NCBI GenBank assembly: GCA_947644715.1
Contig: CANSAP010000006.1
Span: forward strand, 1-64,000
Direction of reading: 5' to 3'
DNA: 64,000 nucleotides
Source of the DNA: an uncultured Bacteroidales bacterium
Lineage (GTDB): Bacteria > Bacteroidota > Bacteroidia > Bacteroidales > Muribaculaceae
Of the stretch, positions 20,995 to 42,100 are shown piece after piece (the stretch's first letter is position 1; every line of letters begins with the position of its first letter). The position numbers and the translations under genes are program-made. The notes below the pieces were generated by a model that was given only the letters and a program-made list of their open reading frames with translations, did no database searches and had not been told where the DNA came from.

Positions 20995-22896
20995 ATGTTT
21001 ATACCCCCGCAGCTTCCCCGTGCGCCTTTTGCGGCGATTACCGGGGCATTCTGCGGGGGGCTCTTATTGTGTTTCCGCGCGGGCGCTTCGGCTTCTGCCG
21101 GGTTGGGATTGCTGCTCGGGGGCGCTGTTCTGTGGATTCTTCTGGAGTGGAGGCGAGTGCGCTTCACGATGCGCGATCTGACATGGCTGCCGGTGATTCT
21201 CTGCTTTTGCGGCACGGGAATCCTGACGGCATCCATCAATCTGCCTATGGATGTTCAGGAGATTCCTGACGGATACCTTGCACGGGGTATCGTAAGGGAA
21301 TCTGCCGGCACGGAGTCAGGCTCACGGCTCACGGTGGAGGTCACAAGTCTCACGCCGCGCCGGAGCGGCGAGGAGCGGAGGCTGCACACCAAGCTGCTGC
21401 TCTACACTGATTCGGTTCCTCTGACAGCAGGGGACCGGATTACTTTCCCGGCCATCTTCACCCCGGCCTCCGGTGAGCCGGCCTATCTCAGCTATCTGTT
21501 CAGCAGGGGGATTGATTTCACGCAGAGCTGCCCCTCCCGGCTTATCGCCCACACGGGTCATGAGCGCTCGCTCCTTACGCTTGCCGGGGATGCCCGCCTC
21601 AGGATTGTGGAGCGTCTGAATGAGTCAGCCCTGAAGACTGACACGAAAGTGTTTATGGCAGCGCTGCTCACCGGCCTGCGCTCCGACATGACTCGCGAGA
21701 CGCGAGCTGCATTCACGGCCGCCGGGATTGCTCACGTGCTGGCCGTCAGCGGGTTGCATGTCGGCATAGTGGTGCTTATCCTGGCATTGCTTCTGCGCCC
21801 GCTGGATTACATCAATGGGCGCAGGCTACGGTATCTGCTCACGATTGCCGGCATCTGGTGCTTCGCGCTGCTTGCCGGTCTGGGAGCGCCGGTGGTCAGA
21901 GCGGCTGTGATGGCGAGCTGCGTGATTATTGCCATACTGTTGCAACGGCCGAGATTGGCACTCAACTCTCTGTGTCTGGCGGCGTTCCTGATACTCCTGG
22001 TGGATCCGCGCGCACTGTTTGACGCAGGATTTCTGCTGAGCTTCTGTGTGACCGGAGGCATTCTGTTTCTTGTCTCGGGGCTGACTCCGGCCCGGGAGCG
22101 GATGCACCCTTGGCTTCACAACGCAACACTTTGGATAGCAGTTCCTTGCGTAGCGTTTCTGAGTTCCTGGATGCTGACCGCCCGTTTCTTTCATTCCGTT
22201 CAGCTTTGGTTCCTCCCGGTCAACCTTCTGCTGGCGCCGCTTCTCCCCTTTTATTTCGGCATCGGAGTGCTGTATATTCTGCTGCTTTTCGCCGGAGTGG
22301 ATTGCAGCCTCTGCGCCACACTGCTTGATGGAGGCTATGCCGCACTGATGCACTGCGCCACATGGGCCGGAAATCTGCCCGGCTCACATGTCAGCCTGTA
22401 TATCAATGAGTTGCCGATATGGTTCTATATGGGAGCACTCATCTGCTTTGCTCTTTACCTGAGCTTTGGCGGGAAATGGAAACTGCTTTCAGCCCTGGGC
22501 GGGGTAGTGGCATCCGGGCTGCTGATTATGCTTGCACCGGCTCCGGTGCCACCCGACACCCTGGAGCTTGGGAGGGGAGCCTCCCGCTGCCTGCTGCGCT
22601 CCACCCGCCGAGGCGAGCCGGAAAAGATGGAATTGCCACGCGGCTCCCTGAGCTGCGCAGAGCTGCAGGGGCACACAATCATTTTCCTTGACAGCGCCAT
22701 GAGCAGCAGTCCCGCCCGAGAGCCGTTGCATTGCGACTGGCTGATTATCGGGTCACGCTATCAGGGCACTTTGGCGGAGGCTTACCGGCAGTTTACGCCC
22801 GACAGCCTCGTCTGGCATCAATCAGTGTCACCGAGCCGCCGCGAAGAGATGGAAGCCGAATTCAAAGCCGCCGGAGAGCGGCATCCTCAATTGTAG
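20995..22896 (+). CDS. comEC: ComEC/Rec2 family competence protein
   Basis: DUF4131-like N-terminus, VLAVSGLHVGIVVLILALLLRPL, LGAPVVRAAVMASCVIIAILLQR. Confidence 0.92.
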   Translation: MFIPPQLPRAPFAAITGAFCGGLLLCFRAGASASAGLGLLLGGAVLWILLEWRRVRFTMRDLTWLPVILCFCGTGILTASINLPMDVQEIPDGYLARGIVRESAGTESGSRLTVEVTSLTPRRSGEERRLHTKLLLYTDSVPLTAGDRITFPAIFTPASGEPAYLSYLFSRGIDFTQSCPSRLIAHTGHERSLLTLAGDARLRIVERLNESALKTDTKVFMAALLTGLRSDMTRETRAAFTAAGIAHVLAVSGLHVGIVVLILALLLRPLDYINGRRLRYLLTIAGIWCFALLAGLGAPVVRAAVMASCVIIAILLQRPRLALNSLCLAAFLILLVDPRALFDAGFLLSFCVTGGILFLVSGLTPARERMHPWLHNATLWIAVPCVAFLSSWMLTARFFHSVQLWFLPVNLLLAPLLPFYFGIGVLYILLLFAGVDCSLCATLLDGGYAALMHCATWAGNLPGSHVSLYINELPIWFYMGALICFALYLSFGGKWKLLSALGGVVASGLLIMLAPAPVPPDTLELGRGASRCLLRSTRRGEPEKMELPRGSLSCAELQGHTIIFLDSAMSSSPAREPLHCDWLIIGSRYQGTLAEAYRQFTPDSLVWHQSVSPSRREEMEAEFKAAGERHPQL

Positions 22897-23133
22897 GCAT
22901 ACGAAGCCGCTGCACAGGAAGCCGAACAGAGAGCCGTATACTCAAATTTAAGTATTTTTAATGCATAGGGTTACTTCTTTTATTGATTTTCTTGGGGATT
23001 TTGAAAGTATAGCCTAACTTTGTCTTAGTTTTTAATATTGAAAGCTTCCTGCTGACTATAAAACAGGAGACATCTCCCGAGCCGGCAGCGGGCTTCAGCA
23101 ACGGTTTTTCGCTTACTCCTCTCCCGCTAAACA

Positions 23134-26100
23134 ATGCTTAGGGTTCTATTTACTTTTATTTGTCTTGCGAGCATTCTGCTGTCATCTAATGCCTCCACCC
23201 TGCCGTCAGGCGCCGCCGCTTCCCACGCCTCTCAAAAGGAGCTGCAAGGGGTCGTGACCGACACTGAGGGGGAGCCGGTGGTGGGTGCCATGATAAAGGT
23301 CAAGAAGTCGTCGCTGGGAGCGGCCACCGACATTGACGGCCATTACAGCCTCGCCGGCAGGCCCCGCGAGGGAGCCGTAATCACGGTGTCAGCCATGGGA
23401 ATGAAGAGCATAGATGTCACCTATCACGGGGAGCCGGTCATGAATTTCACTATGGAGACCGACCCCACTATGCTTCAGGAGGTTACGGTCGTTGCAGAGC
23501 CCAACATCAATGATATTGATGTCAGAAGCCGGTCAGGCGTCGTGCAGACAGTCGACATGAAGCGACTGACCGAAAAGCCGGTCATGGACATGGGGCTTGC
23601 ATTGCAGGGAGCCGTGCCGGGACTGATTGTGACCAACACCGGCGAACTTGGCTCAAAGCCTACAATCCGCATACGCGGCAATCAGTCGCTGCGCGCCGGC
23701 GACTCTGCCAACGAGCCGCTCTATGTGCTTGACGGCAAGGTGATTTCCGCCGACACTTTCCGCTCGCTCAATCCCCAGGATATCCGTGAGATAAAGGTGC
23801 TGAAGGATGCGGCAGCCTGCGCGCTCTATGGCATCAAGGCGGCCAACGGCGTGATTGAGGTCTCCTCTAAGCGAGGAAGCCACTTCGGCGCCGTCGATAT
23901 CAATTACACTCTCAGCATGGGTGTCACGCTGAAAGGGAGGCGGGGTGTCGACGTAATGAAGTCAGCCGAAAAGCTGGAGCTGGAGCGGCTCATGATGAAT
24001 GAAGCCACGCCGGGCTACCGATACAGCGCTGACTATTTCCGTAAGCACTATGCCGGCTCGCCCAACCTCGACGCAATGATTGCCTCGGGAGCCGCAACGC
24101 TCGACTCGCTGCGCGCCATCAATACCGACTGGTTCAACCGCCTGATGCGCACAGCGCTCTATCAGAACCACAATCTTTCGGTGAGAGGGGGTGGCGAACA
24201 GGCCTCCTACTTCATGAGCGCCAACATCTCAACACAGGGGGGACAGATTGAAGGGAACAGCACCCTGCGCGGCACCCTGCGCATGGGGCTTGACCTGGCC
24301 ATCGGCAAAATCGGCGACTTCACGCTCACCATGGATGGAGGATACACCGACAACAAGACCCCCAACGGAAGCAGCTTCTCCCCGGCCTCACTCATCTATA
24401 ATCTGAATCCTTATGAGACTCCGGAGAGCCTCCAACTCTGGTCTTACCCGAACCGCTCGCTCGCCGACCTGCTCTACCAATACAGCGGCAACAGCACCGA
24501 GAAGCGTGCCGGTATCTCCTCAAGCATCCAGCTGCGCCCCCTGCCTGACCTGGATATCTCAGCCGTAGCCGGACTGGACTATCTGCTCTCGGAGTCCACA
24601 CAGTTCACTCCGGCCTCCTCCTATTCCGAACAGCAGAGCGGCTTCAGCGCCGCCGAACTCGGACGCCTTGCCAAGGACAAGAACACGCTGATGAATTTCA
24701 CCTACAACGTGCGCGCCGTCTACAATCACCTCTTCGCTGACCGCCATGACGTGACCCTCAGCCTTAACCATGACTATTATCTGACTAACACCGACAACCT
24801 CGGCATCATCGGATATGGTGTGGGCAACCAGCCCTCGGCCGCCCTCATCAACCAGTCACTCACGGGTGCCCGCAAGCCCGCCGTCTCCGCTCTCAAAGAG
24901 AAAGTTGCGCAACTTGGTGTCGGGGCTGTGGCCGGCTACACCTTCGACCGCACCTATGACCTCTTCGCCACCTATAAGCTTGACGCCTCCTCGCTGCTCC
25001 CCTCTGACAAGCGCTGGAACTCGGCCTGGGCCGTTGGCGCCGGAATCACACCTTCATCCTATCCCTTCCTGGCCGGCAACCGGGTGCTGACGCGCCTCAA
25101 CCTGAAAGCGAGCTACGGCAGCACCGCCTCCCTGGCCGGGGTCAGCGCGGCGCAGACCATAGCCACCTTCGCCTATCTTGAAGAGACCTACGACAACTCA
25201 CGCCTTCTCCAGCTCCTGGCTCTCTATAACCGCGACCTGAAGCCGGAACACACCACCTCCATCGACGCCGGCCTGCACATGGGGCTGTTCAACCTCGTGA
25301 GCCTCGACCTGCAATGGTATCGCCGCGAGACAGCCGACGCACTGCTGGATGTGCCCGTGGCGGCCAGCAACGGCTTCAGCATGATGAAGCGCAACATCGG
25401 CACCCTGCGCAACGACGGCGTGGAGGCGGGCATCTCGCTGAACCTCTCTGACCTGCATCCTGACTGGCAATTCCGGTTCAGCACTACGGCGGCCTACAAC
25501 CGCAACAAAGTGGTCGACCTCTACTACACCGACAAGCTCTACACCAGCGACTACTCTCTGATTCCTGACTTTCAGGTCGGAAAAGCCTATGACATTCTCT
25601 ACGGCCTGCAGCAGACAGGCATAAACTCCGTGACCGGGCTTCCGATTTTCATCGGCAAGGATGGTCGCGAGATAGAGCCGGGCAAGACGAAACTCACCCG
25701 CGACGATTTCATAGTGCTCGGCCACCTGACACCCCCCTTCTCAGGCACCATCAGCCTGGGGGTGAGTTGGCGTGAATTTGAGCTGGATGCCGACTTCTAC
25801 TGGGTCTCCGGAGGTGTGCGGCAATACAACTACACTTACGTGCGTAACCGCGACGATGTCAACTACAACGCCCTGGCCGGCCTGACCGAAACCATGTGGT
25901 TCCATCGAGGCGACGTCGACAAGCTCTACTACTCCCCCTTCTATGCCTCTTCGGCCATTGAGACCCTCTCCTATGCCAACACCTCCAACACCGGGTCGTC
26001 AGACTATCTGCGACTCTCCATGCTCTCGCTTCGCTACCGCCTGCCGCAGACGCTGCTCCGCCACACCGGCAATCTCATCAAGTATGCTTCGGTTGCCCTT

Positions 26101-26214
26101 CAGGCCTCCAATCTCTTCACCATCACCCCTTACAGCGAATCTGACCCTGAGACCGGTAAACTCGGTGCCTCCATCCAGCCGGTAATAACAATGAATCTTA
26201 GCGTAACATTCTGA
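23134..26214 (+). CDS. SusC/RagA family TonB-linked outer membrane protein
   Basis: Carboxypeptidase-like domain LQGVVTDTEGEPVVGAMIKVK, plug NQSLRAGDSANEPLYVLDGKVISADTFRSLNPQDIREIKVLKDAAACALYGIKAANGVIEV, terminal VTF. Confidence 0.97.
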   Translation: MLRVLFTFICLASILLSSNASTLPSGAAASHASQKELQGVVTDTEGEPVVGAMIKVKKSSLGAATDIDGHYSLAGRPREGAVITVSAMGMKSIDVTYHGEPVMNFTMETDPTMLQEVTVVAEPNINDIDVRSRSGVVQTVDMKRLTEKPVMDMGLALQGAVPGLIVTNTGELGSKPTIRIRGNQSLRAGDSANEPLYVLDGKVISADTFRSLNPQDIREIKVLKDAAACALYGIKAANGVIEVSSKRGSHFGAVDINYTLSMGVTLKGRRGVDVMKSAEKLELERLMMNEATPGYRYSADYFRKHYAGSPNLDAMIASGAATLDSLRAINTDWFNRLMRTALYQNHNLSVRGGGEQASYFMSANISTQGGQIEGNSTLRGTLRMGLDLAIGKIGDFTLTMDGGYTDNKTPNGSSFSPASLIYNLNPYETPESLQLWSYPNRSLADLLYQYSGNSTEKRAGISSSIQLRPLPDLDISAVAGLDYLLSESTQFTPASSYSEQQSGFSAAELGRLAKDKNTLMNFTYNVRAVYNHLFADRHDVTLSLNHDYYLTNTDNLGIIGYGVGNQPSAALINQSLTGARKPAVSALKEKVAQLGVGAVAGYTFDRTYDLFATYKLDASSLLPSDKRWNSAWAVGAGITPSSYPFLAGNRVLTRLNLKASYGSTASLAGVSAAQTIATFAYLEETYDNSRLLQLLALYNRDLKPEHTTSIDAGLHMGLFNLVSLDLQWYRRETADALLDVPVAASNGFSMMKRNIGTLRNDGVEAGISLNLSDLHPDWQFRFSTTAAYNRNKVVDLYYTDKLYTSDYSLIPDFQVGKAYDILYGLQQTGINSVTGLPIFIGKDGREIEPGKTKLTRDDFIVLGHLTPPFSGTISLGVSWREFELDADFYWVSGGVRQYNYTYVRNRDDVNYNALAGLTETMWFHRGDVDKLYYSPFYASSAIETLSYANTSNTGSSDYLRLSMLSLRYRLPQTLLRHTGNLIKYASVALQASNLFTITPYSESDPETGKLGASIQPVITMNLSVTF

Positions 26215-27608
26215 TGTCAGCGACCATGAGATATACCCTTTCAGCCACCCTCTTCCTGCTGATGCTCCTGTCGGGCTGCTCGCTCGACATCCCCTACGAG
26301 AACCAATTCTCTGACCCGGATGCAATAACCACTCCCGAAACCGGGCGCGAGCTGCTGGCTTACGCCTATAATTCCCTCCCCAATCCGGAGTTTGACCTCG
26401 CGCTGCTTGCCGATGATTTCGAGCCTACTTACTGGGCTCCGCGCAATTCATCGCTCAACAATGAATACACCTGGCAGCCGCAGGCGCTGATTGACCTGAG
26501 TGCCTCGCTATGGACTGAGTATTACGAGGTTATAGCCTCACTGAACGCTCTGCTTGAGCGCACCCCTGACATAAAGGTGAGCTCGGAGGCTGACCGCACG
26601 GCGCTGAACAATCTCACCGCTGAGGCCTACACGCTGAAAGCCTTCTGCTATTTCCGTCTGTTGCAGCTTTTTGCCTCCGGCCCTGACACGCCCGATGCTG
26701 ACGGAATCATTCTCAAGGATAAAGTGGCTATGGAGAACCTTCCCCGCCGCCCGATTAAAGACTGCATCGCGGAGATTCGCTCGTTGCTCACCCGCGCCCG
26801 GGAGCTTGGCAACAGCGGCGCCAACAAAGCTTGGATTACCTCCGACGCCACTCTGCTGCTCTCTGCGCAGGTGGAGCTGTATGCCGGCAACTGCGCAGAG
26901 GCTGCCCACCTCGCCCGTGAGTTGCTCGACAAATATGGGTTCGAGGTCTTCGCTCCCCAGGCCTATGATGCGCTTTGGAACAGCACCACGAGCGCCGAGC
27001 AAATCTTCATCTTCAACAGTCCCGACCGCACGGGCAGCTTCTATCAGGAGATTGTCTATGACACAAATTCCGGCGACTATTTCTCAGTAGCCCCGGCCAT
27101 AGCCGCCGCTTACGGGCCGACCGACTGCCGCACCCCCTGGAGCATATGCGAAGTGACCACCTCGGCTCTCGGCACTCTGCCCTTCATCGGAAAATACAAT
27201 CGGCTGCGCCGCGAAAAGCGGGAGATTACGTTCGTCAATAAGATGCGTCTCTCCAACGCTCTGTTCACGGCGGCTGAAGCGCTGGTCCGGGAGGGACAGG
27301 GGGCAGAAGCCCGCTCGATCATGAATGAATATCTGTCGCGCCGCGGCGCCGAGCTGCTGGCCGACGATTTGACCGGCGACCCACTGATGCTCGCAATCCT
27401 GCACCAGAAGCAGCTCGAATTTCTCGGTGAGGGGGAACGCTTCTTCGACCTGAAGCGCTATCGCGCCACTCTGCTTAACACCCCTTCCACCCGCATTCCC
27501 CCCGCCGGAGACTACCGATGGCTCCTCCCGATTCCTAAGGATGAATATCTCTATAATGAGGCAGCCAATCAAAATCCCGAGTGGCCGAAATCCTCTTTTA
27601 ATGATTGA
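26214..27608 (+). CDS. RagB/SusD family nutrient-binding lipoprotein
   Basis: Lipobox LLSGCS; SusD-like AEAYTLKAFCYFRLLQLFA and RREKREITFVNKMRL..EALVREGQGAEARSIMNEYLSRRG..LAILHQKQLEFLGEGERFFDLKRY. Confidence 0.96.
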   Translation: MSATMRYTLSATLFLLMLLSGCSLDIPYENQFSDPDAITTPETGRELLAYAYNSLPNPEFDLALLADDFEPTYWAPRNSSLNNEYTWQPQALIDLSASLWTEYYEVIASLNALLERTPDIKVSSEADRTALNNLTAEAYTLKAFCYFRLLQLFASGPDTPDADGIILKDKVAMENLPRRPIKDCIAEIRSLLTRARELGNSGANKAWITSDATLLLSAQVELYAGNCAEAAHLARELLDKYGFEVFAPQAYDALWNSTTSAEQIFIFNSPDRTGSFYQEIVYDTNSGDYFSVAPAIAAAYGPTDCRTPWSICEVTTSALGTLPFIGKYNRLRREKREITFVNKMRLSNALFTAAEALVREGQGAEARSIMNEYLSRRGAELLADDLTGDPLMLAILHQKQLEFLGEGERFFDLKRYRATLLNTPSTRIPPAGDYRWLLPIPKDEYLYNEAANQNPEWPKSSFND

Positions 27609-27647
27609 GATACTGCTTGATTTATCTTTCAAAATAATTAATACACT

Positions 27648-28934
27648 ATGAAAAAAGTTTTCCACTATCTGGCCCTGGCAGTCTGCCTGCTCCCGGCCAT
27701 GGTATCCTGTTCGGACGAGAACAATGAACCCCAAAGCGGGGTCACCAACCACATCTATCTGAGCCTGCCCGGCGGCACGTCGACCCTCGCTGAAGGGAGC
27801 GACGAGGCTCTGACTGTTGATGTGACTCTCAGCTATGCGCCCTCAGCTGACCTCACTCTGAAATTTGAAGCGGAGAATGACCTTGACGGTGTGCTGACCC
27901 TCACTGACAACACAGTCAGCATCACTGCCGGAAGCACCACCGGCTCCTTCACCATCTCCGCCCGGAATGCCACCGGTCTCACCGCTCCCGCCTCCTTCTC
28001 TTTCAAGGTGGCTGAGGTTACACCTGCCGGCACTCCGGTTGACATCAAGGAAAATGTGACCGTCACTGTCAATCCGGCATCCGGCGCCACCCCTCTCACT
28101 CCCGAACTGAAAGCGCTCGTCGAAACCTGGAAAACGAAATATGGCATCGACATCACCCCCTGGCTGGGCAACATCAAGCTCTCCGGCTCCTTGCAGTTCC
28201 CCGGCAGTGGCACCCGCGATGCGTTCGTCTCACCCTCCACACTGACCCTCTCCGGCTCCACTCTGTTCAATCTCAGCACAGAGTCAACCGAGGAGATGCC
28301 TGTGCTCAACATGGATGAGAACCCCATGGGTCTGACTGACTATCTCTACCGCTCTTTCCTGCGCCTCACTGTGGATGACCGCGAATACTTCGCTCTGGAG
28401 GATGAAGGCTCCGGGCTGGAACTCATGGAGCTGCTCAACTGGAACGCAACATCGCAGGAAACCTTCGGGGTGACTCTGCCCGGCCTGCGCATAACCTCTA
28501 TCGCCAATGGCAAAGCCAATGTGGAATTTGTCAGCGAAGGGGAGCGACTCATCTATGGCACCAACGGTCAGCCCATCTACAATCCGGAGTATGACATGAA
28601 TCTCACCTATAACTATGCCTCCAGCTGGATTCCGTTCAACTACACCTACTCAGCTTGGAGCCGTCAGCTCGACATGATTGCCAACGGTGTTCCCTCTGCT
28701 CTGGAACTGCTCACCTATGGAGTGAGCGCCGCTCCGGCCACTTATCTCGGCATCTCCGATGTGCTGGAGGATGCCTGGGAGGTTGACGAAGAGGAGGATG
28801 GTGTGGCCAATCTCTATGTGCGTCCCTCCGGTGTGATTGACTTCAACGCCGGCACCATGACCTTCACCTTCCCCTTCGACCATGCTGACCAGTATGGCTA
28901 CTCCCGCGTGACTGTTGTCTATTCCTTAAAGTAA
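27648..28934 (+). CDS. Hypothetical surface lipoprotein with Calx-beta-like N-terminal repeat
   Basis: Lipobox AMVSCSDENN; LYLTFKFE-type beta repeats ADLTLKFEAENDLDGVLTLTDNTVSITAGSTTGSFTISARNATG. Confidence 0.7.
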   Translation: MKKVFHYLALAVCLLPAMVSCSDENNEPQSGVTNHIYLSLPGGTSTLAEGSDEALTVDVTLSYAPSADLTLKFEAENDLDGVLTLTDNTVSITAGSTTGSFTISARNATGLTAPASFSFKVAEVTPAGTPVDIKENVTVTVNPASGATPLTPELKALVETWKTKYGIDITPWLGNIKLSGSLQFPGSGTRDAFVSPSTLTLSGSTLFNLSTESTEEMPVLNMDENPMGLTDYLYRSFLRLTVDDREYFALEDEGSGLELMELLNWNATSQETFGVTLPGLRITSIANGKANVEFVSEGERLIYGTNGQPIYNPEYDMNLTYNYASSWIPFNYTYSAWSRQLDMIANGVPSALELLTYGVSAAPATYLGISDVLEDAWEVDEEEDGVANLYVRPSGVIDFNAGTMTFTFPFDHADQYGYSRVTVVYSLK

Positions 28935-28946
28935 AGTAATCTCGCC

Positions 28947-31811
28947 TTGAATCGTTACGTACTTTCGGTTGTGCGCATTGCCGCTCTCCTGCTGGGGGCG
29001 GCAATGGCCGCACCTGCATTCGCCCAATCCACCTCTCTGAATGAAGAGATTAAGCTCCCGGCTGAGGCCCGCGAGGGGCGCCTGAAGAACGGGCTGCGTT
29101 ATCTTATTCTCCCCAACGACATTCCGGCCGGACGCGTGGAATTCCGGCTGGTGTGGCGCGTGGGAGCGCTCCAGCAGGAGGAGGACCAGGGGGGCGCCGC
29201 TCATTTCCTGGAGCATCTGGCGTTCGGAGGATCCACTCACTTCCCCGGCCGCAGCGCCGTGGCCTATCTGGAATCAATGGGAATGAAGTATGGAGTGGAC
29301 ATCAATGCTTTCACCGGCCATGACCGCACCATCTACATGTTTGCAGCTCCGGCCGACTCTTTACGTAACAACGGCTTTGCAAAGCCACTGGGCATCATCC
29401 GCGACTGGATTGACCAACTGACCATCAACCCGGCACGCGTGGAAACTGAAAAGGGGATTATCCTGGAGGAGCTGCGCAGCTTCTATCAGGAGGATCCCTT
29501 CTACGACCTGAAAATCGGTCAAAACCGTTACAGCCAACGGATGCCTCTGGGCACTCCGGAGGAAATCCGCCGGATGACCGCCGACCGTCTCCGCAGCTAC
29601 TACGACACCTGGTATGCCCCCCGCTTTGCCTCGGTGGTCATTGTGGGTGATCTGGACCCTGACTCTCTTGAGCGCGAATTGACCGATATGCTGGCTCCCA
29701 TTCCGGCGCGGCCCGACCCCGGCTTTCGCTCCTATCCGCTGGAATACAGCCCGTCGCGCAACATTATGCTTGACATTGACTCTCTCGCCTCGCGCGACGA
29801 GGTGGAGTTCATTGTTCCTCATCCGGGCATAGTCACACACACGCTCGCCGATGCCCGCCGGCGCGAATTGAATGCTGTCGTCACAGCTGCTCTCGCCAAG
29901 CGTCTTGCTGACCGGGGAATCAAGACCGATGTGAGCGACGCCTGGTATCTGGGCGACACCAATCATCTGGTGCTGACCGCCCGCAGCAGCGCCGGGCTTC
30001 CGATTGATTCCTGCATAGCTCTGACTGCCCGCGAGGTCAAGGGCGCGCTCCGCTTCGGCTTCCTCCCTGAGGAGATTGAGTATCATGCCGGGCGCGCCGC
30101 AGGGCGCCTCGACAATTCCGCTCACTCGGATTATTCATCTGCAGCATGGTGTGAGGAGCTTGCTGACCGCTACCTCTCCGGCGACAGCTATGTCACTGAC
30201 TCCGATCAGCTCACGCGCCTGCGCGAAGCCGTGGCCGGCATCTCGGCCGCCGAGGCTGATTCGCTGCTGCTGGTCTGGATGGATTGCATGGACAAGTCGC
30301 TGCTGCTGGCGGTGCGCACATCTCCCGACCGAGCCTCCCGCCTGTCTCTCGACCACCTGACCCGGGCCTGGGCCGACGGCTTCAACAGCGAGCCGCTCCC
30401 TTACGCGTTCGCCGCTCCCGAGGCTACGCCCCGACGCGAGATTGCGGCTCCGCCAATTCTGACCACCCCCCGGCAGCCCCGCCCGGAGGCTATCATCAAC
30501 CGGGAAGTGCTTTCCCCTTTGGAGCTGCACACATACACCCTGACTAACGGGATGCAGCTCGCCGTGCGCCGAACCACCGATGATGGCCCGGCCATGTTTG
30601 CAATGGTTGCTCCGGGTGGCTTCAGCTCCATTCCCGCTGACCGCCTCCCCCTGCTCGGCGATGCCGCAAGCTATATTGACCTGGGGGGAATCGCCGCCAT
30701 GCCTTACGAGGAGTTGTCTGACTACATGTATGAGAGCGGACTCACCCTCAGCACTGCCATCGAAAAAGACTGGCACGGTTTTCTCGGCGCGTTTGAGCCG
30801 GCTCGCCACACGGAGTTCTTCAATCTCCTCCATGAGAAAATCCTCCACCCGGAATTGCGCTATGAGGACTTCGAGGAGATTCGTCTCTCCATGCTCGAGG
30901 ATGCAGGTAAGGAGTCGATGCTCGAAAAGATGCTGAACCGCGCCCCGGACCGCCGACTGCGTGCACGCCTCGACGAGCTGATGGGCAACTCACTCCCCTC
31001 CTCCGCCCCCACTGACACTGCTGCTCTCAAGCGCAACATCCGCAACATGAGCCTCGACAGCATCGCCGCTTTCTATCAGAAACTCTATCTGAACCCCGAG
31101 CGCTGCACATTTATCGTGGCCGGCAACTGCAATCCCGATTCAATCGCCGCTGACTTCGCGGCTCTCTTTTCCGACCTGCCCGCTGCCTCGCAGACCCTCA
31201 CCCGCTTCTCCCCCCTCAGTCTGCCGCAGAAGACTCTGGTGGAGCAGTTTCCCAACGAGAACCCTTCGCAGACCGAATTCGACTACATCTTCTTTTCCTC
31301 TTACTCTCCCGGCCTGCGCAACTCCCTCATTCTTAAAATCATGAATGCTCTGCTCGGCAACCGCGTCATCAGCGAATTGCGCGAAAGCCGCTCGCTGGTC
31401 TATTCCCCTTACGTGGGGCTGACCTATGAGGGATTGCCGCGCGGCTACTGCTACTTCGACATCAATTCCTCTGCCGACAATGCCAACATGGAAGCTGTCG
31501 AAGCGGCTCTGCGCGATGTGATTCACTCCCTGCGCTCCACTCCCCCGACAGCCTCGGAGCTGGAGGCAATCAAGCTCTCATGCAAAATTGCCAAGCGCGA
31601 GACACTCACCCCCTATTCCCCCTCAGCTTGGCGCACCACCCTGATTTCCCTGCTGAAAAACGGCGAGAGTTTCTCTGACTTTAATAACTACGACTCCATA
31701 ATTGACTCCATCACTCCCGAAGAGATTCAGCAGGCTTTCGATTCGATGATTACGCCTGACCTCTATCTGCTTCTCTACATGAGCCGACAAACCATTCCTC
31801 ACCATGATTAA
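28947..31811 (+). CDS. M16 family zinc peptidase (pitrilysin/insulinase-like)
   Basis: Inverted zinc motif HFLEH in AAHFLEHLAFGGSTHFPG; signal peptide ending APAFAQ; 954 aa consistent with fused M16 halves; TTG start. Confidence 0.95.
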   Translation: MNRYVLSVVRIAALLLGAAMAAPAFAQSTSLNEEIKLPAEAREGRLKNGLRYLILPNDIPAGRVEFRLVWRVGALQQEEDQGGAAHFLEHLAFGGSTHFPGRSAVAYLESMGMKYGVDINAFTGHDRTIYMFAAPADSLRNNGFAKPLGIIRDWIDQLTINPARVETEKGIILEELRSFYQEDPFYDLKIGQNRYSQRMPLGTPEEIRRMTADRLRSYYDTWYAPRFASVVIVGDLDPDSLERELTDMLAPIPARPDPGFRSYPLEYSPSRNIMLDIDSLASRDEVEFIVPHPGIVTHTLADARRRELNAVVTAALAKRLADRGIKTDVSDAWYLGDTNHLVLTARSSAGLPIDSCIALTAREVKGALRFGFLPEEIEYHAGRAAGRLDNSAHSDYSSAAWCEELADRYLSGDSYVTDSDQLTRLREAVAGISAAEADSLLLVWMDCMDKSLLLAVRTSPDRASRLSLDHLTRAWADGFNSEPLPYAFAAPEATPRREIAAPPILTTPRQPRPEAIINREVLSPLELHTYTLTNGMQLAVRRTTDDGPAMFAMVAPGGFSSIPADRLPLLGDAASYIDLGGIAAMPYEELSDYMYESGLTLSTAIEKDWHGFLGAFEPARHTEFFNLLHEKILHPELRYEDFEEIRLSMLEDAGKESMLEKMLNRAPDRRLRARLDELMGNSLPSSAPTDTAALKRNIRNMSLDSIAAFYQKLYLNPERCTFIVAGNCNPDSIAADFAALFSDLPAASQTLTRFSPLSLPQKTLVEQFPNENPSQTEFDYIFFSSYSPGLRNSLILKIMNALLGNRVISELRESRSLVYSPYVGLTYEGLPRGYCYFDINSSADNANMEAVEAALRDVIHSLRSTPPTASELEAIKLSCKIAKRETLTPYSPSAWRTTLISLLKNGESFSDFNNYDSIIDSITPEEIQQAFDSMITPDLYLLLYMSRQTIPHHD

Positions 31812-32679
31812 GACCTTAGTATTCAGCTCTCTTATCCTCTCAGCCTCCCTCTGCGCATCCGCTCAGTCGCCGGTCGCTTACCGCCTGTTTGACAACCGGG
31901 GGCAGGAGGTATCCTTCACCCAAATGACCGATTCCCTCTCCCGCGCCGACGTCGTCTTCATTGGCGAGAACCACAACTGCCCCATAGCCCATTGGATGGA
32001 GTATAAGATTACTGAGGACCTCCATGGGCGTCGCGGCCCCTCCCTCGTGCTTGGAGAAGAGATGATGGAGGCTGACAATCAGCTGATTCTTGACGAATAC
32101 ATGCAGCGCCTCATCAGCTATGACCGCTTTGAGGCTGAAGCTCGGCTGTGGCCGAATTATTCGACTGACTATTACCCGGTTATCCTCTACGCCAAAGAGC
32201 ATTCCATCCCCTTTGTGGCCACCAACGTGCCCCGCCGCTATGCGAATGCCGTCAGCCAGGAGGGGCTTGCCTGCCTCGACTCCCTGTCAGACGAAGCCAA
32301 GAGATTCATCGCTCCGCTGCCCATTACGTTCAGCTACGACTCCGCCACCGACGACCGCTTCGCCGCCATGCAGATGCTGAGCCGCCGCTCCCCCGAAGAG
32401 ATGCGTCGGCTCTCGGAGGCTCAGGCCCTGAAAGATGCCACCATGGCCTGGTTCATCTCCCGAAATCTGCCGAAAAACGGTCTCTTCCTCCACATCAACG
32501 GCTCCATGCACTCCAACAGCCGCGAAGGCATAATTCCCTATCTGCTCGAATATGCCCCCGGGCTGAACATAGCCACAGTCACCTCTCTGCGTCTCGATGA
32601 CCCCGCTGACCTGACTGACTACCTCGGCCTGGCGGACTTTTACATCGTGGTTCCCGAAGACTTCCCGACGAGCTACTGA
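31804..32679 (+). CDS. ChaN family (heme-binding-type) protein
   Basis: VVFIGENHNCPIAHWMEYKI...LVLGEEMMEADNQ..DEYMQ..YPVILYAKEHSIPFVATNVPRRYANAVSQEG; signal peptide; 8-nt overlap with the M16 gene. Confidence 0.88.
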   Translation: MIKTLVFSSLILSASLCASAQSPVAYRLFDNRGQEVSFTQMTDSLSRADVVFIGENHNCPIAHWMEYKITEDLHGRRGPSLVLGEEMMEADNQLILDEYMQRLISYDRFEAEARLWPNYSTDYYPVILYAKEHSIPFVATNVPRRYANAVSQEGLACLDSLSDEAKRFIAPLPITFSYDSATDDRFAAMQMLSRRSPEEMRRLSEAQALKDATMAWFISRNLPKNGLFLHINGSMHSNSREGIIPYLLEYAPGLNIATVTSLRLDDPADLTDYLGLADFYIVVPEDFPTSY

Positions 32680-32733: not shown

Positions 32734-34182
32734 ATGGCATCACAAGGTCAACATATCGAGCAACACCTGGGTCAGCACCTGCAACAGCGTCTCACGCCGC
32801 TGCAGGTGCGCTTCGTGCGTATGCTCGAGATGAACCGCAGTGAGGCCGACGAAGCCGTCGAAAAGGAGCTGGCCGACAATCCCGCGCTGGAACAGATTGA
32901 CGACTCCCTGCCCGAGACACCCACCGAGCATGGCGACCGCTTCCGTGAATCCTCAGAAGACCTCCAACGCAAGGACTATGCCGACCCCGACGAGATTCCC
33001 TGGTACAGACTGCGCACCCCCGACTCCGGCCGCACGGACATCTACATCCCGGTGACCCCCGACGACGGCGACGACCTGTACTCCTCTCTTCTCACCCAGC
33101 TCTCGGAGCTGCACCTCTCGCCCGAGGTCAGGGACACGGCTGAATACATCATCGACAGTCTCGATGCCAACGGCTATCTCACCCGCTCCCCCGCCGGGAT
33201 GCTAAGCGACATAATCATAGCCACCGGGCGGGAAGTCTCGCCACAGACAATGACGCAGGCTCTGGAGGCTGTGCGCAGCCTGGACCCGGCCGGTGTGGGC
33301 GCCCTGTCGCTCGAACAATGCATGGAGCTGCAACTGCTCCGCCTCCCCCAATCCACCGCACGCGAAGATGCTTTGGAGATTGTGCGCCGCTGCTGGGACT
33401 CTTTTCTCAAGCGCCACTCCCACAAGATTACTTCGCGCCTGCGCATCAGCAGCGAACGCACCGCAGCAGCCGTCGCACTCATTGCCCGCCTGAACCCCAA
33501 GCCGGGAGGCGCCGTGGGGAACGAACGCGGCAGTCGCGCGGCAGCCATCGTCCCCGACTTTATTGTGGACACTGACGATGACGGCTCTCTTACCGTCAGC
33601 CTCGGCGGCCGCAATCCCCGCCTCGCCATCGAAGCCTCATTCGAAAGCGCCATGAAGCTGATGCAGTCGCGCGAAAACCGCAAACCCAAAGGTGCTGACT
33701 ACATAACCGCCCGCTATAACGATGCCCGCGACTTCATTGCCCTCGTCCGCCAACGCCGGGAAACGCTCCTGGCCGTAATCACCGCCATTGCAAAAATCCA
33801 AAAAGAATACTTCCTGACCGGCGACGAGTCCACCCTCCGCCCCATGACACTGAAAGATGTCGCAGCCATAATCGGCAACGACCCCAGCACCGTCTCCCGC
33901 TCCACCTCAGGCAAATACGTCCAGACCCGCGCCGGCATCAAACCGATGCGCTTCTTCTTCTCCGAGGGTTACAGCGTCGATGATGGGGCGGATGTCTCAG
34001 CCCGCCAGGTGCAGGCTGCCCTAAAGAAAATAGTGGAGCAGGAGGATTCGAGCCACCCCCTGAGCGACGAAGCCCTCTGCACGCGCCTGAGCGAACAGGG
34101 CTTCGACGTCAGCCGCCGCACCGTAGCAAAATACAGAGACAGGCTCGGAATACCCGTAGCCCGTCTCCGCAAAACGCATTGA
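32734..34182 (+). CDS. rpoN: RNA polymerase sigma-54 factor
   Basis: N-terminal LQQRLTPLQVRFVRMLEMN, STLRPMTLKDVAAIIGNDPSTVSRSTSGKYVQTRAGIKPMRFFFSEG, C-terminal RRTVAKYRDRLGIPVARLRK. Confidence 0.98.
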   Translation: MASQGQHIEQHLGQHLQQRLTPLQVRFVRMLEMNRSEADEAVEKELADNPALEQIDDSLPETPTEHGDRFRESSEDLQRKDYADPDEIPWYRLRTPDSGRTDIYIPVTPDDGDDLYSSLLTQLSELHLSPEVRDTAEYIIDSLDANGYLTRSPAGMLSDIIIATGREVSPQTMTQALEAVRSLDPAGVGALSLEQCMELQLLRLPQSTAREDALEIVRRCWDSFLKRHSHKITSRLRISSERTAAAVALIARLNPKPGGAVGNERGSRAAAIVPDFIVDTDDDGSLTVSLGGRNPRLAIEASFESAMKLMQSRENRKPKGADYITARYNDARDFIALVRQRRETLLAVITAIAKIQKEYFLTGDESTLRPMTLKDVAAIIGNDPSTVSRSTSGKYVQTRAGIKPMRFFFSEGYSVDDGADVSARQVQAALKKIVEQEDSSHPLSDEALCTRLSEQGFDVSRRTVAKYRDRLGIPVARLRKTH

Positions 34183-36123: not shown

Positions 36124-39100
36124 ATGTCTACAAAGCTACTAAAGCTAACCGCGCTGCTCGCGCTGTTCCTTTGGTTTCCGGCAAGGGCGGATATTCCAAC
36201 CTACGACATGCCGAAAAGGGACATGAAAGATGCGGTGCAGACTGTGGAGGAGCAACTGCTCTTCTACGACCATGGAGGTGCTACGGGTAACATCCAAAGC
36301 CTCTACTACCAGACTCTCTGTGTCTTCAAAAGCGCCAATGAGGGGGATGCCCTCTCAATCACGTTCAACAGTGTCGACCTCAACGGCCCAGTGCTCTACA
36401 TCTATGATGGCGAAATCAGCGCTTACAATAAGGTGACCGAGGGTTATATCGGAACCGTAACCGGCACCGAGACAGCCTCTTTCGAGGCAGCCTCCGGCAC
36501 ACTGTCTGTGCTCTACTATTCCACCGGCTATGCCAACAGCGGTGCCGGTTGGGAAGCCCTGCTTGAGTCTGTCCCCTCCAAGGATATGGAATGGGTGTCG
36601 GCCGCTGCCAACACGGCGTTCTCCACGAATATATATCCCGGCGCCACGACGGTACCGCTCATGTGCGTTGACATGCTCACCGACGGCGGAGGCAATCCCC
36701 TTAATCTCAACAATATAACTTTCGCACTTGAGGGCGACGGCATGGCAGCTTTCAAGAATCTGCGCTGCATGGTGAACCGTGACCAGAACAGTCCCGCCGG
36801 TGGCGACATCTTCGGCGAGGCATTCGATGCAGCAGCCCCAACCATGACCTTCTCCGGCGCTCACGCGCTGAAATCAAAGCACAATTACATCTGGCTTGTG
36901 GCCGACATTGATGTGGCGGCTTCCGCCGGCACATCGGTTTCACCCGTATGCTCTTCTCTGAAAGTAGCTGACGCGGAACGACTGTCAACTCCCCTGACCG
37001 GCTCTGCGGCTGAAATCAAAAACATGCTCTTCATGCCCACGGGCCCGGCCACCTATAAGATTGGCGACACTCCCCTGCTCTTCTATGATGATGGAGGACC
37101 GGAAGGCAACATAACTCTCAATTTCGAGGGCGAAGTGACCTTTGAGCCGGAACATGACGGAAAGAAGGTGCGTGTAGTCTTTGAATCGCTCGACCTGTTC
37201 AACACCTCAACCATCGGCAAAAACGATGTACTGAAGATTTATAACGGCCGTGCGGCCGACAATACGGCGCTGCTCGCCTCGCTGCTCAATGACCCTCTCA
37301 CGATTCATTCCACAGCGGTCGACGGCTCGCTGACCGTAACCTTCCAAAGCCTGACCGGCGTTAATCCGAAGAGCGGTTGGGTGGCTCGTGTCGAGGAGTT
37401 CACTCCGCAGCCCATGACCGTCACCGCCCTGACAGCCACCGGCCTGTCAGGCATCAATACGGCTGCCGGCTCTGCTGCCAAAGCGCTCAGTTTTGAAGCA
37501 ACGACCGTCGGCACCGAACCGGCTGCCACGCTCAACGCCGTGACCCTCAGCCTGGCCGGAAGCACCGCTCCTATTGCATCGGTGAGCCTGACTGACCTCA
37601 ATGGCAATCTCCTCGGGGAGGCTGACGTTACATCTGAGTCCGTCACGCTGACTCTCTCGGCTCCCGTGGCTCTCGGCGAACGCGACAACATCTTCAACGT
37701 CAATATCACTCCGGCAACATCCGCCCTGAGTGGACAGACAATCGCGGCTGCCTTGCAAAATGTTCAACTCAGTTCCGGCAGCATGACCCCCTCAGCCTCC
37801 ACTCCGGCTGCTGTGGAAATCAATAATGTCTGCCAACTGACCCGCGACTATCATGAGCACACAATCTTCGGAGAGTGGACGCTCACCCATGAACCTCACT
37901 CCAACTCTTACCTGGGCTACGACGGCACTGCCGGCGAACGCAAGGTGACCCTGCATCCCGGCACCGAGGGTATGTTCATTGAACTGGAGTTCAATTCCTT
38001 CTACGTAAACTGGCCCACCTGGGGCAACGCACCCTCCTTCAAGGTTTACTCAGGCTCGGAGGCCACCGGCGAACCAATCTGGACCATGACTCAGGCCAAT
38101 GCCAAGACCGGTCCCGAGACCCCGCTCCGCTCATCCTCTGTGGATGGAGCCATGACAATCGTCTTCAATCCCAATGGCAACAACGGAGCCATGGGCCAGG
38201 GTTTCAATGCCGCCGTGCGCGAATACATCCCCGCCCCGATGCAGCTCTCGCAGGTTGAGGTTAGTCAGGCAAGCACCGACCCGGTGCAGAGCGGCGACAC
38301 GAATGTGGCTGTCCTGCGCATCGCCACAACCACTACCGGCGACCTTAACCCCCTCCCCTTCGAGTCGCTCTCCATCGACCTCAAGGATGCCAAGGGAAGC
38401 GTAAAGAGCGCCAAACTCTATTCCACAGGTCGCTCCGATCAGTTCACCACCGGCAATCTGATTGCCACTGCCGATGTGCAGGCCGAGGCCTCTTCCGTAA
38501 CTCTCACCCCGACGGCCACCACCCGCCTTGCGGAAAAAACCTGCTACTATTGGCTCGCATTCGATATGAACGAGCAGATTGAGCCTGGGCATGACATTGA
38601 TGCAGCCGTGACTGAAATGAAGGTCAACGGGGCTGCCGTCTCAGGCATTATCACCCCCGACCCCGAGGGCGCCCGTCCCTCTGTGGCCGTCTATCTCTTC
38701 GACGGCGATGACCGTGTGGTGGATGTCAAGGGGACTCTGCTCTTCTACGACGATGGAGGCGCCACAGGCAAATACACCACTACCCACAAAGGCAAAGTCA
38801 CTTTCCGTCCTGCCGAGGGTGAGATTATCCGCTTTGCCTTCAAGCAGTTCTATACCAATATCAGCGACTACTTCTACGTATACGACGGAGCTGCAGCCTC
38901 CGGTGCACTGCGAGCCAAGCTCTCAAGCTCCAAGACTGACCTGGCTGACATTTTCTCCACCTCTGAGGATGGCTGTCTCTCCGTAGACTTCAATCCCACG
39001 AAGAATAACATCAACGACGGCTGGTATATCGAAGTCTCTTCCGTACGCCCCGAACCGCTTCACATCGCCACAGCCGAATTGACGGCTGTCGAGGATGCCC

Positions 39101-42100
39101 GCCTGCTGCGCGGCGCCGAGAAGCTGCTTGTGGCCCGTCTGCGTCTGGAGGTTGAGGGCAACCGCGGCCCGGTTCCCTTCACTGAGTTCAGCTTCGACAC
39201 TGCCGGCTCCACAGCCGGACTGCTTGCCGGACTCTCGCTCACCAGCTCCGAGCAGCTCGAGTCTTATAATGATGTCAACGAGATAGCCTCCGCTGCCACC
39301 GGCGCTCTTTCCTCTCCCGACTTCGCTATCTCCACCCCCGGCACCTACTATCTCTGGCTGCGTGCCGACATTGCAGCCGACGCGCCCGCTGCAGGCTCTC
39401 TGAAGGTGGCTCTCGCTTCCGTAGCCAATGCCGACGGCTCTCTTTGGAACACCCCCGGCGAACAGCTCGAACTGGCTCTCACCCCCGGCATGAACGGCAC
39501 CTATACCATCGGCGCTTCCCCGGAGGCTGACTACGCTACCATCCAGGCTGCCGCCGACGCCCTGAAGCAGGGTGTGGATGGCCCCGTGACTTTCCTCATC
39601 GAGAGTGGCGACTACAAGGAGCTTGTCTCCATTCCCGAAATACCCGGTGCCGGCGAGGCTCACCCCGTGACCTTCCGCAGCGCCTCCGGCAACCGCGCGG
39701 ACGTGACTCTGCACTATGATTCCTACACCGCCTCCTACGGCCAGCCGGAATATGGTGTGCTCACTGTGAAGGGTGCCGACTGGCTTACGCTGGAAGCACT
39801 CACGTTGACCAGCTCCGCCAATGCCTTCCCGATGATTGTGAAGCTCCAGGATGCCTCACGTCACTTCACTATGCGCGACTGCCACGTGTATTCGCCTCAC
39901 CGCTCCGGAACCTCCGACCCCACTCTGGTGGAATGCTACGTAAGCTCCGAGGCTGTGCCTGACCGCAACAATGACTATGCGAGCTTCGAGAACTGTCTGT
40001 TCGAGGGTGGATACATGGGTGTGCAACTGGGTGGCACCTCAATTGTGAACCCTGTGGCGCTCCCTGTTGAGAAGGGTGGTTCAATCACCGACTGCACCTT
40101 CATCGGCCAATACTCAAAGGGTATCTATCTGAGCGCTGAGTCAGGCGCCCGCCTGCTCCGCAACTACTTCGAGAGTCAGCCGAACAGCTATTCCTCCTAC
40201 TATGCCATGGACCTGCTCAACGGCTATGATGACCTGCTCGTGGAGGGCAACATAATCAATCATGCCTATCCGGTAAGCTCCTCATCCGGCATCTATGTGC
40301 GCAATCTCTATGGCAGCGCCGAAAAGGCTCCGGCCATCATCAACAATGAAATCGTAATCAGCAACGCCACCAGCGCCGTGCGCGGCATCACGATTCAATA
40401 TCCGGTGCCCTATCTCCGGTTGGCTCACAACAGTGTGAGCATCTCCGGCACAGCCTCCTCTTCCGCCTGCCTCTACGTCAACGACACTATGAGCGAGGCT
40501 GTCGTGGCCAATAATATCTTCGACAACCGCGCCGCAGGCTACGCCGTGCGTGTGCAGAAGGCCGAATATATGCCGGCAGCTTTCACCACCAATATGATGC
40601 GCTCCTCGGCTGAGGCGCCCCTGAACTATCTTGCCGGCGACATTGCCGACCTCGAAGCCTGGGCAACCGCAGCCTCTGACCCCACTGCGTTCACCGCCGA
40701 TGTGGAATACCTGGCCGAAGACATTCTCGAGCCGATGGATTTCGCTCCGTTGACCAAGGGTACCCCGCTGCCGTATGTAACTGCTGACATCTCCGGCACT
40801 CCGCGCGATGCCGCCGCTCCCACCGTAGGTGCATACGAGGCTTCTGCTCTGTCTGTCACTCCGGCTCCCGCCGAAGGTTACCCGCTGATTGACTGCGTGA
40901 CTCATGAGTCTGCCCGCTTGACATTGGCTGCAAATTGCCATGCCGCAGCCCGCGTGCTTGTGCTTGAAGCTTCCGCCGAAGCTCCCGAGGCTGAAGCGGT
41001 CGAGGCCTCAGAACTGACTCTCAGCCTGCGCAAGAACCGTCCCGCATCTCTCATCCTGCCTGACCTCGCCCCCAACACTGAGTATAAGGCTTGGCTTGTG
41101 ATTACATCCCTGCGTGGCGAAAGTGGCGAGCTCTTTGCAGCGCCCGAGTTTGAGACCACTTATGCGCCGACTACTGTCTCAACCTTCGAGAATGTGCAGA
41201 TGATTGGCGACGACGCTCCCGGCTCTTTCCTCGATGGAACCGCACGTTTTGACGGGTTCCTGGTGGAAGAGGAGGAGAATCTTCCCGTGGCCGGTTCCTC
41301 CCGGGTTGCTGTCATGGAGGACACTGAAGCTACCGTGACTCTGACCAATGCCTCCAACCTGACTCTCGACGGTTTCTGGCTCCGCAACTCTGAGGAGGTT
41401 GAGCTGACGGCTCTCTCTGAGGAGGGTCAGGAATTGACCTCAAAGACTCTGCCCGCAAACGGCTGGCGTTACGTCAACCTGCGCGACATGGGCGAGATGG
41501 CTGCTCTGACCCTCTATACTGAAGGGGCTGCCGCTATTGATGATTTCAGCGGCCAACCCGCACAGCTCTCTGCCCGGGTGCAAGGTGCCGAAACCGGCAT
41601 CGCTCAGGGTGACACCTTCTCTCTGACGGCTATGGCCGAAGGTGGTGTGCAGCCCTTCACTTACAGCTGGACCGACAAGGCCGGCTCTCCGCTCGGCTCC
41701 GAGGCTCTGCTTTCCCGCACGGCTGAGGTGACTGACTTATATACTGTGAAGGTTACTGATGCCTGGGGTGCCGAAGCTACCGCCTCCGCCCGCCTGAATG
41801 TTTCAGGCGACATGGTTATCGCCACTTTCGACGACCTCTATCTTGAGCCTGATTCCAAGTGGCATGGCGACCTCAACGACCCGGACTACACGTCAGGCAC
41901 GTTCCTCTCCGGTTCCTTCGAGTTCAGCAATTACTATATGGCTGACTGGAATTCCTGGAGCTGGTTCGGCTACGCCAACCTCGAGGGTACCAATTACTCA
42001 AGCTACAATGATGACATGGTCTGCGCCGCAGGCAGCGGTCATGATTCAGCCGGCTACGGTGTGGCCTTCATGGGTGATTATTATGGCCCGACGCTGATGT

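Follow-up and report, generated by a model that had tools for sequence, protein, structure and literature searches.

A conserved SusCD-DUF4929-M16-ChaN operon of Bacteroidales, linked to haem genes and probably serving haem (iron) acquisition

A stretch of 64,000 nucleotides (nt) of contig CANSAP010000006.1 (GCA_947644715.1), from an uncultured Muribaculaceae (Bacteroidales) bacterium, was analysed and is called the window below; the genome that contains it measures 2.4 Mb. Positions 23134-32679 hold a run of five genes, all on the + strand, encoding a SusC-type transporter, a SusD-type lipoprotein, a DUF4929 lipoprotein, an exported M16 zinc protease and an exported ChaN-family protein (Table 1), named by Pfam and NCBIfam profile matches on the open reading frames (ORFs) of the window. 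The nearest relatives of this operon are in Muribaculaceae. An original prediction, made from the DNA letters, had proposed that the run imports and cleaves a peptide or an iron- or haem-bearing protein. ORF calls and profile matches confirmed the five co-directional genes and their coordinates, the 1 nt shared by the SusC and SusD genes, the 8 nt shared by the M16 and ChaN genes and the HFLEH motif of the protease, and bore out the claim that no glycan enzyme lies in the five-gene set or adjoins it here, the Pfam-assigned neighbours ComEC and RpoN not being carbohydrate-active enzymes. The genes and their intact motifs are observed directly, and gene context and homology are the basis of every functional claim.

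Table 1. Features of the operon and its surroundings in the window, with the loci of the chelatase-like gene found beside related operons
Feature	Position	Strand	Evidence or remark
ComEC, upstream flank	20995-22896		Pfam
Leader/promoter region of the operon	22897..23133	+	237-nt gap between ComEC and SusC
SusC/RagA-type TonB-dependent outer-membrane transporter, 1026 aa	23134..26214	+	TIGR04056 E 3.6e-158; Plug domain
SusD-type lipoprotein lid, 464 aa, lipobox Cys22	26214..27608	+	SusD_RagB PF07980 / SusD-like_3 PF14322
DUF4929 lipoprotein, 428 aa, lipobox Cys21	27648..28934	+	PF16283 E 1e-68
Exported M16 zinc protease, 954 aa, TTG start	28947..31811	+	Peptidase_M16 + M16_C (PF00675/PF05193)
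Exported ChaN-family (Cofac_haem_bdg) protein, 291 aa	31804..32679	+	PF04187 E 7e-57
RpoN, downstream flank	32734-34182		Pfam
Cobalamin riboswitch RF00174	35693-35954	+	67.6 bits
Gene for a 2251-aa protein	36124-42879	+	DUF4465, BNR_assoc_N, beta-helix domains
CbiX-like gene loci (other genomes)	L036:457-1362, L039:420-1316, L045:273-1178, L169, L174-L176, L180		

The third gene product, the surface lipoprotein of the original prediction, matches DUF4929. The lipobox cysteines of both DUF4929 and SusD are invariant across 27 orthologues. A structure prediction for DUF4929 by AlphaFold2 (AF2; mean predicted local distance difference test score, pLDDT, 86.6) contains a region whose best-fitting Foldseek matches are Calx-beta/Ig-like domains of ~115 residues; for the remaining part, a further domain, Foldseek finds no solved relative, a sequence search of the PDB with DUF4929 returned nothing, and the family was not found in the literature searched. 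The M16 protein carries HFLEH at residues 86-90, with E168, 82 residues past the first His, as candidate third zinc ligand, and HxxEH is present in every orthologue examined. Its best solved relatives are 9ldy, PqqL and FusC, of which the first two are the closer and are matched by the profile over full length. The operon copies of the protease are 31-55% identical among themselves, and the copy studied here shares 24% identity with a 933-aa M16 protein of the same genome, from which it is distinct.

The ChaN-family protein scores 193 bits against PF04187 (cut-off 27.7), a haem-binding family of the Tiki superfamily, and contains GENH (54-57) and NGSMH (232-236). The best Foldseek match of its AF2 model (pLDDT 92) is the cofacial haem-bound Campylobacter jejuni ChaN, 2g5g (E 2e-15; TM 0.76 normalised to target length; 19% identical residues in the fold alignment; sequence similarity is marginal, E 0.024), followed by EreC-type esterases. 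The GExH and GxxH motifs are common to both ChaN proteins, whereas C. jejuni ChaN was deposited as a lipoprotein and the protein described here has a signal peptide in which no lipobox is evident. The residues invariant over 57 ChaN proteins (among them G54, E55, H57, H63, W64, E86, E89, R144, R145, Y146, K210, D211, H230, G233 and H236) resemble an active site, and the protein may be catalytic. A tree of 83 ChaN proteins groups the copies encoded in operons on a single branch (support 80/93), to which one contig-edge row and one M16-ChaN pair also belong; 52 stand-alone copies lie outside it. Some stand-alone ChaN genes adjoin hmu haem genes, co-directionally in Petrimonas (L055) and divergently in two Marinilabiliaceae-type genomes (L056, L058). 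Many other solo ChaN genes (L061, L065, L070, L074, L078, L096, L098) lie near genes for an S41 peptidase and a Wzy_C-domain protein, and most of these neighbourhoods also contain a dCMP deaminase gene.

The order SusC-SusD-DUF4929-M16-ChaN is kept in ~36 distinct Bacteroidales genomes of gut and oral origin (duplicates removed, sequence sampling uneven), among them Bacteroides faecis, Phocaeicola faecicola, Prevotella amnii, Hoylesella buccalis and Paramuribaculum intestinale, so that the co-occurrence on which the original prediction depended is indeed conserved. This recurrence of five genes in fixed order is far beyond chance. The flanking genes vary between genera while the five remain constant, and the five genes are therefore the unit. 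DUF4929 scores above its cut-off in 4/149 genomes across the order and in 5/198 of the family; it is rare, and the operon is therefore patchy even inside a genus. Among 399 Bacteroidaceae-type genomes, 16 encode DUF4929, and all 16 have the complete five-gene set. A single-sequence DUF4929 scan of genome contigs gave no relative, where a scan with the ChaN alignment succeeded. Weak DUF4929 matches in three further genomes (G106, G082, G241) proved to be located in unrelated loci.

Variants of this arrangement were also observed. In one genome (G008) the M16 and ChaN genes are fused into a single ORF of 1252 aa (L016:5585-9343 (-), the same as L080:7091-10849). A second candidate fusion (L077) was an artefact, the protein having 305 aa and an M16 match of merely 16 bits. 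Another M16-ChaN pair (L035:6988-10873) has no adjoining SusCD, and its 947- and 353-aa neighbours were ruled out as a receptor pair by a sequence search, which shows no resemblance to SusC or SusD. In G535, a second DUF4929 gene lies in opposite orientation just downstream of the full operon (L174:15280-16509 (-)). In P. intestinale DSM 100749 (L024:1-2406), susC is seemingly shortened beside a 392-aa ORF, which may encode a transposase, and the operon there is possibly interrupted.

The first sign tying the operon to haem is the position of hmuSTUV, directly upstream of susC and on the same strand, in three lineages. In P. faecicola (L186/L177) the run reads HmuY-HmuR-HmuS-HmuT-HmuU-HmuV-SusC-SusD-DUF4929-M16-ChaN, with ~48 nt between hmu and susC; in G475 (L188/L170) it reads HmuS-T-U-V-SusC-SusD-DUF4929-M16-ChaN, with a hmu/susC overlap of 41 nt as called; and in G087 (L187/L018) it reads HmuS-T-U-V-SusC-SusD-DUF4929, with a gap of ~18 nt. 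The rough probability of at least three such adjacencies arising by chance is 4e-7 to 1e-5, an estimate that disregards shared ancestry. HmuY and HmuR are not among the five genes of the operon and stand upstream of operon copies only in P. faecicola. At the G087 and G475 loci (the rest of these genomes was not searched) neither hmuR nor hmuY precedes hmuS, and SusCD-DUF4929 therefore sits in the place of the outer-membrane receptor. HmuU and HmuV power haem import into the periplasm, and HmuS was shown in B. theta to strip iron from haem (PMC12583661). The genome studied here has hmuRSTUV-like genes on another contig (L184) and a feoB candidate, and a downstream route therefore exists. Beside hmuY in P. 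faecicola (L186:5962-8817) lie genes for a histidine-containing protein of 117-119 aa and, next, a TonB receptor; the same couple occurs twice downstream of the B. faecis operon (L028:12589-18271).

A second sign comes from Prevotella-type copies, in which a gene for an exported CbiX/ferrochelatase-like class II chelatase, absent from this window, abuts susC upstream with gaps of ~-3 to 37 nt. The gene was found in 6/399 genomes, five of which carry the operon, in each case with the gene immediately before susC (hypergeometric 3e-7, with no correction for shared ancestry); these are all 5/5 operon-bearing genomes of the group g164. Identity of their CbiX-like proteins to the P. amnii query ranges from 43 to 95%, and in one of the five genomes there is a further copy, located at the edge of a contig (L182). 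The sixth genome has the gene in a TonB receptor-HmuY-CbiX-flavodoxin run, and CbiX-like relatives in other Bacteroidales likewise adjoin TonB receptors together with HmuY or flavodoxin (L142-L144). The gene may be likened, by function and context only, to IhtB of Porphyromonas gingivalis, a putative ferrochelatase/reverse ferrochelatase in haem metabolism (PMC13227078). The hmuSTUV genes, the CbiX-like chelatase and the solo ChaN genes beside hmu are independent signs tying the operon to haem, and this link is well supported by context.

We consider it probable that the operon serves haem (iron) acquisition through import and digestion of a haem-bearing polypeptide. At the cell surface, a protein or peptide carrying haem would be captured by the DUF4929 lipoprotein together with the lid SusD, and SusC would move it over the outer membrane, TonB-energised with the ExbB/D-like HmuU/HmuV. 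In the periplasm, the M16 protease would cleave the polypeptide, and ChaN would take and hold the freed haem, handing it to the inner-membrane hmu machinery with its de-chelatase HmuS; in Prevotella-type copies, ChaN would instead hand it to the exported CbiX-like chelatase, which would free the iron. We infer the cargo, the direction of the haem hand-off and all enzymatic activities from context and homology. Free haem, haem peptides and a folded haemoprotein are all conceivable as cargo. SusCD pairs are established importers of large ligands (PMC7782687, PMC7618045). Of the import-and-cleave idea put forward in the original prediction, the haem half has gained from the three hmuSTUV lineages, the chelatase and the ChaN-hmu joins, while the evidence for the protein-import half is still the M16 gene. 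More tentatively, we suggest that SusCD with DUF4929 might replace HmuY/HmuR as receptor of the hmu pathway in Bacteroidales, importing intact haem-bearing peptides or proteins for M16 digestion and ChaN unloading, which would make it the first SusCD importer of haem or haemoprotein and the first SusCD import-and-cleave system.

Several observations weigh against haem acquisition. In most carriers, this genome included, the operon is not beside hmu genes. One locus (L015) lacks ChaN and another, that of G087 (L018), lacks both M16 and ChaN, the two being paired on a separate contig of that genome (L145:6926-10665). Neither regulatory nor expression evidence turned up for the iron or haem control expected of the system: across 23 upstream regions there is neither a shared operator nor a Fur-type box, just AT-rich words, and Rfam finds no element in the operon leader. 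On the regulatory side, the literature offers a lead only: a ‘TonB-dependent transport system’ of five genes in Prevotella intermedia (PIOMA14_I_0804-08), raised 5- to 33-fold by low iron (PMC10434189 Table 3), might be this operon. A paper on the Bacteroidetes iron stimulon names no M16, insulinase or CbiX genes. The ChaN residues E55, H57, E86, H230 and H236 are also compatible with a Tiki/EreA-fold enzyme. Finally, among solved structures SusC is closest to RagA, which transports peptides (E 4e-69).

The last two points, with the capacity of M16 enzymes to digest peptides and the EreC esterases as second fold match of ChaN, fit oligopeptide nutrition of the kind known from the SusCD-type transporter RagAB of P. 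gingivalis, in which SusCD would import peptides, the M16 protease and a Tiki-like metalloprotease of ChaN fold, with the invariant GExH/NGxxH residues as its site, would digest them, and haem would be incidental. RagAB is not known to have M16, ChaN or DUF4929 as partners, nor any link to haem genes. Peptide nutrition would not lead one to expect hmuSTUV in three lineages or an exported chelatase in Prevotella-type copies, and no cytoplasmic peptide transporter or peptidase recurs in the flanks, which are annotated only partly; we regard it as unlikely. Less likely again is another metal-tetrapyrrole or metal-peptide cargo, such as a corrinoid or a peptide that carries zinc or iron, for which one could cite the roles of CbiX and CobN-like proteins in cobalamin metabolism and a cation efflux gene upstream of the operon in B. 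faecis. HmuY and HmuR lie within the same gene run in P. faecicola, however, and Rfam detects no cobalamin riboswitch at seven related operon loci or before this operon, which speaks against a corrinoid.

The original prediction drew on the Fus system of Pectobacterium, in which the M16 protease FusC digests imported ferredoxin (PMC6071955). Like Fus (FusA/FusB/FusC) and YddB/PqqL, the operon couples a TonB-dependent receptor to an exported full-length M16 protease and would follow an import-and-cleave logic (PMC6071955, PMC6793856), and its protease resembles PqqL over the full length; in this broad sense the operon is a variant of protease-associated TonB-dependent import. A strict Fus/PqqL-type function, with an iron-sulphur protein such as ferredoxin imported and degraded by M16 for its iron, is nevertheless very improbable, and the resemblance does not hold in that narrower form: the receptor is not of FusA type, being SusC (over the TIGR04056 cut-off) and SusD with DUF4929, ChaN is added, there is no TonB-like FusB among the five or adjoining genes here, the linked genes concern haem and not Fe-S clusters, and the FusC match covers just two thirds of its length. 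An ordinary glycan-utilisation locus whose adjacent carbohydrate enzymes were lost or never needed would suit a SusCD pair, such pairs usually being glycan importers, yet is scarcely credible given constant M16 and ChaN partners, linked haem genes and no carbohydrate enzyme inside the unit in any of the ~36 genomes (flanks annotated only partly).

Another of the known systems nearest to this operon is the hmuYRSTUV haem operon of Bacteroidota. In three lineages it adjoins either the full set of five genes or just three of these, and it would supply the ExbB/D-like energising proteins and HmuS. HmuY/HmuR differs from the five-gene set in that it pairs a haemophore with a smaller TonB receptor and includes neither SusD nor a protease. 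SusCD, M16 import-and-cleave and hmu are joined in this operon and were not found described together in the literature searched; a text search of Grinter 2019 (PMC6793856) gave no SusCD-M16 system, SusC appearing there just as a distant group.

Downstream of RpoN, the window contains a cobalamin riboswitch that precedes the gene for a 2251-aa protein (Table 1). This giant is probably a surface protein and may be B12-controlled; no btuB was present among the Pfam-checked neighbours.

Many gut Bacteroidales are unable to make haem, and their capture of haem from proteins is known only in part. If the proposed function is true, a SusCD pair that supplies haem-bearing polypeptides to the hmu de-chelatase would give SusCD a role beyond glycans and peptides, DUF4929 and the Bacteroidota ChaN would gain a function, and protease-associated import, which Pectobacterium and E. 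coli are known to use, would extend to a main gut phylum. Because the predicted partners are limited in number, conserved, and found in named species, the proposal can be tested directly.

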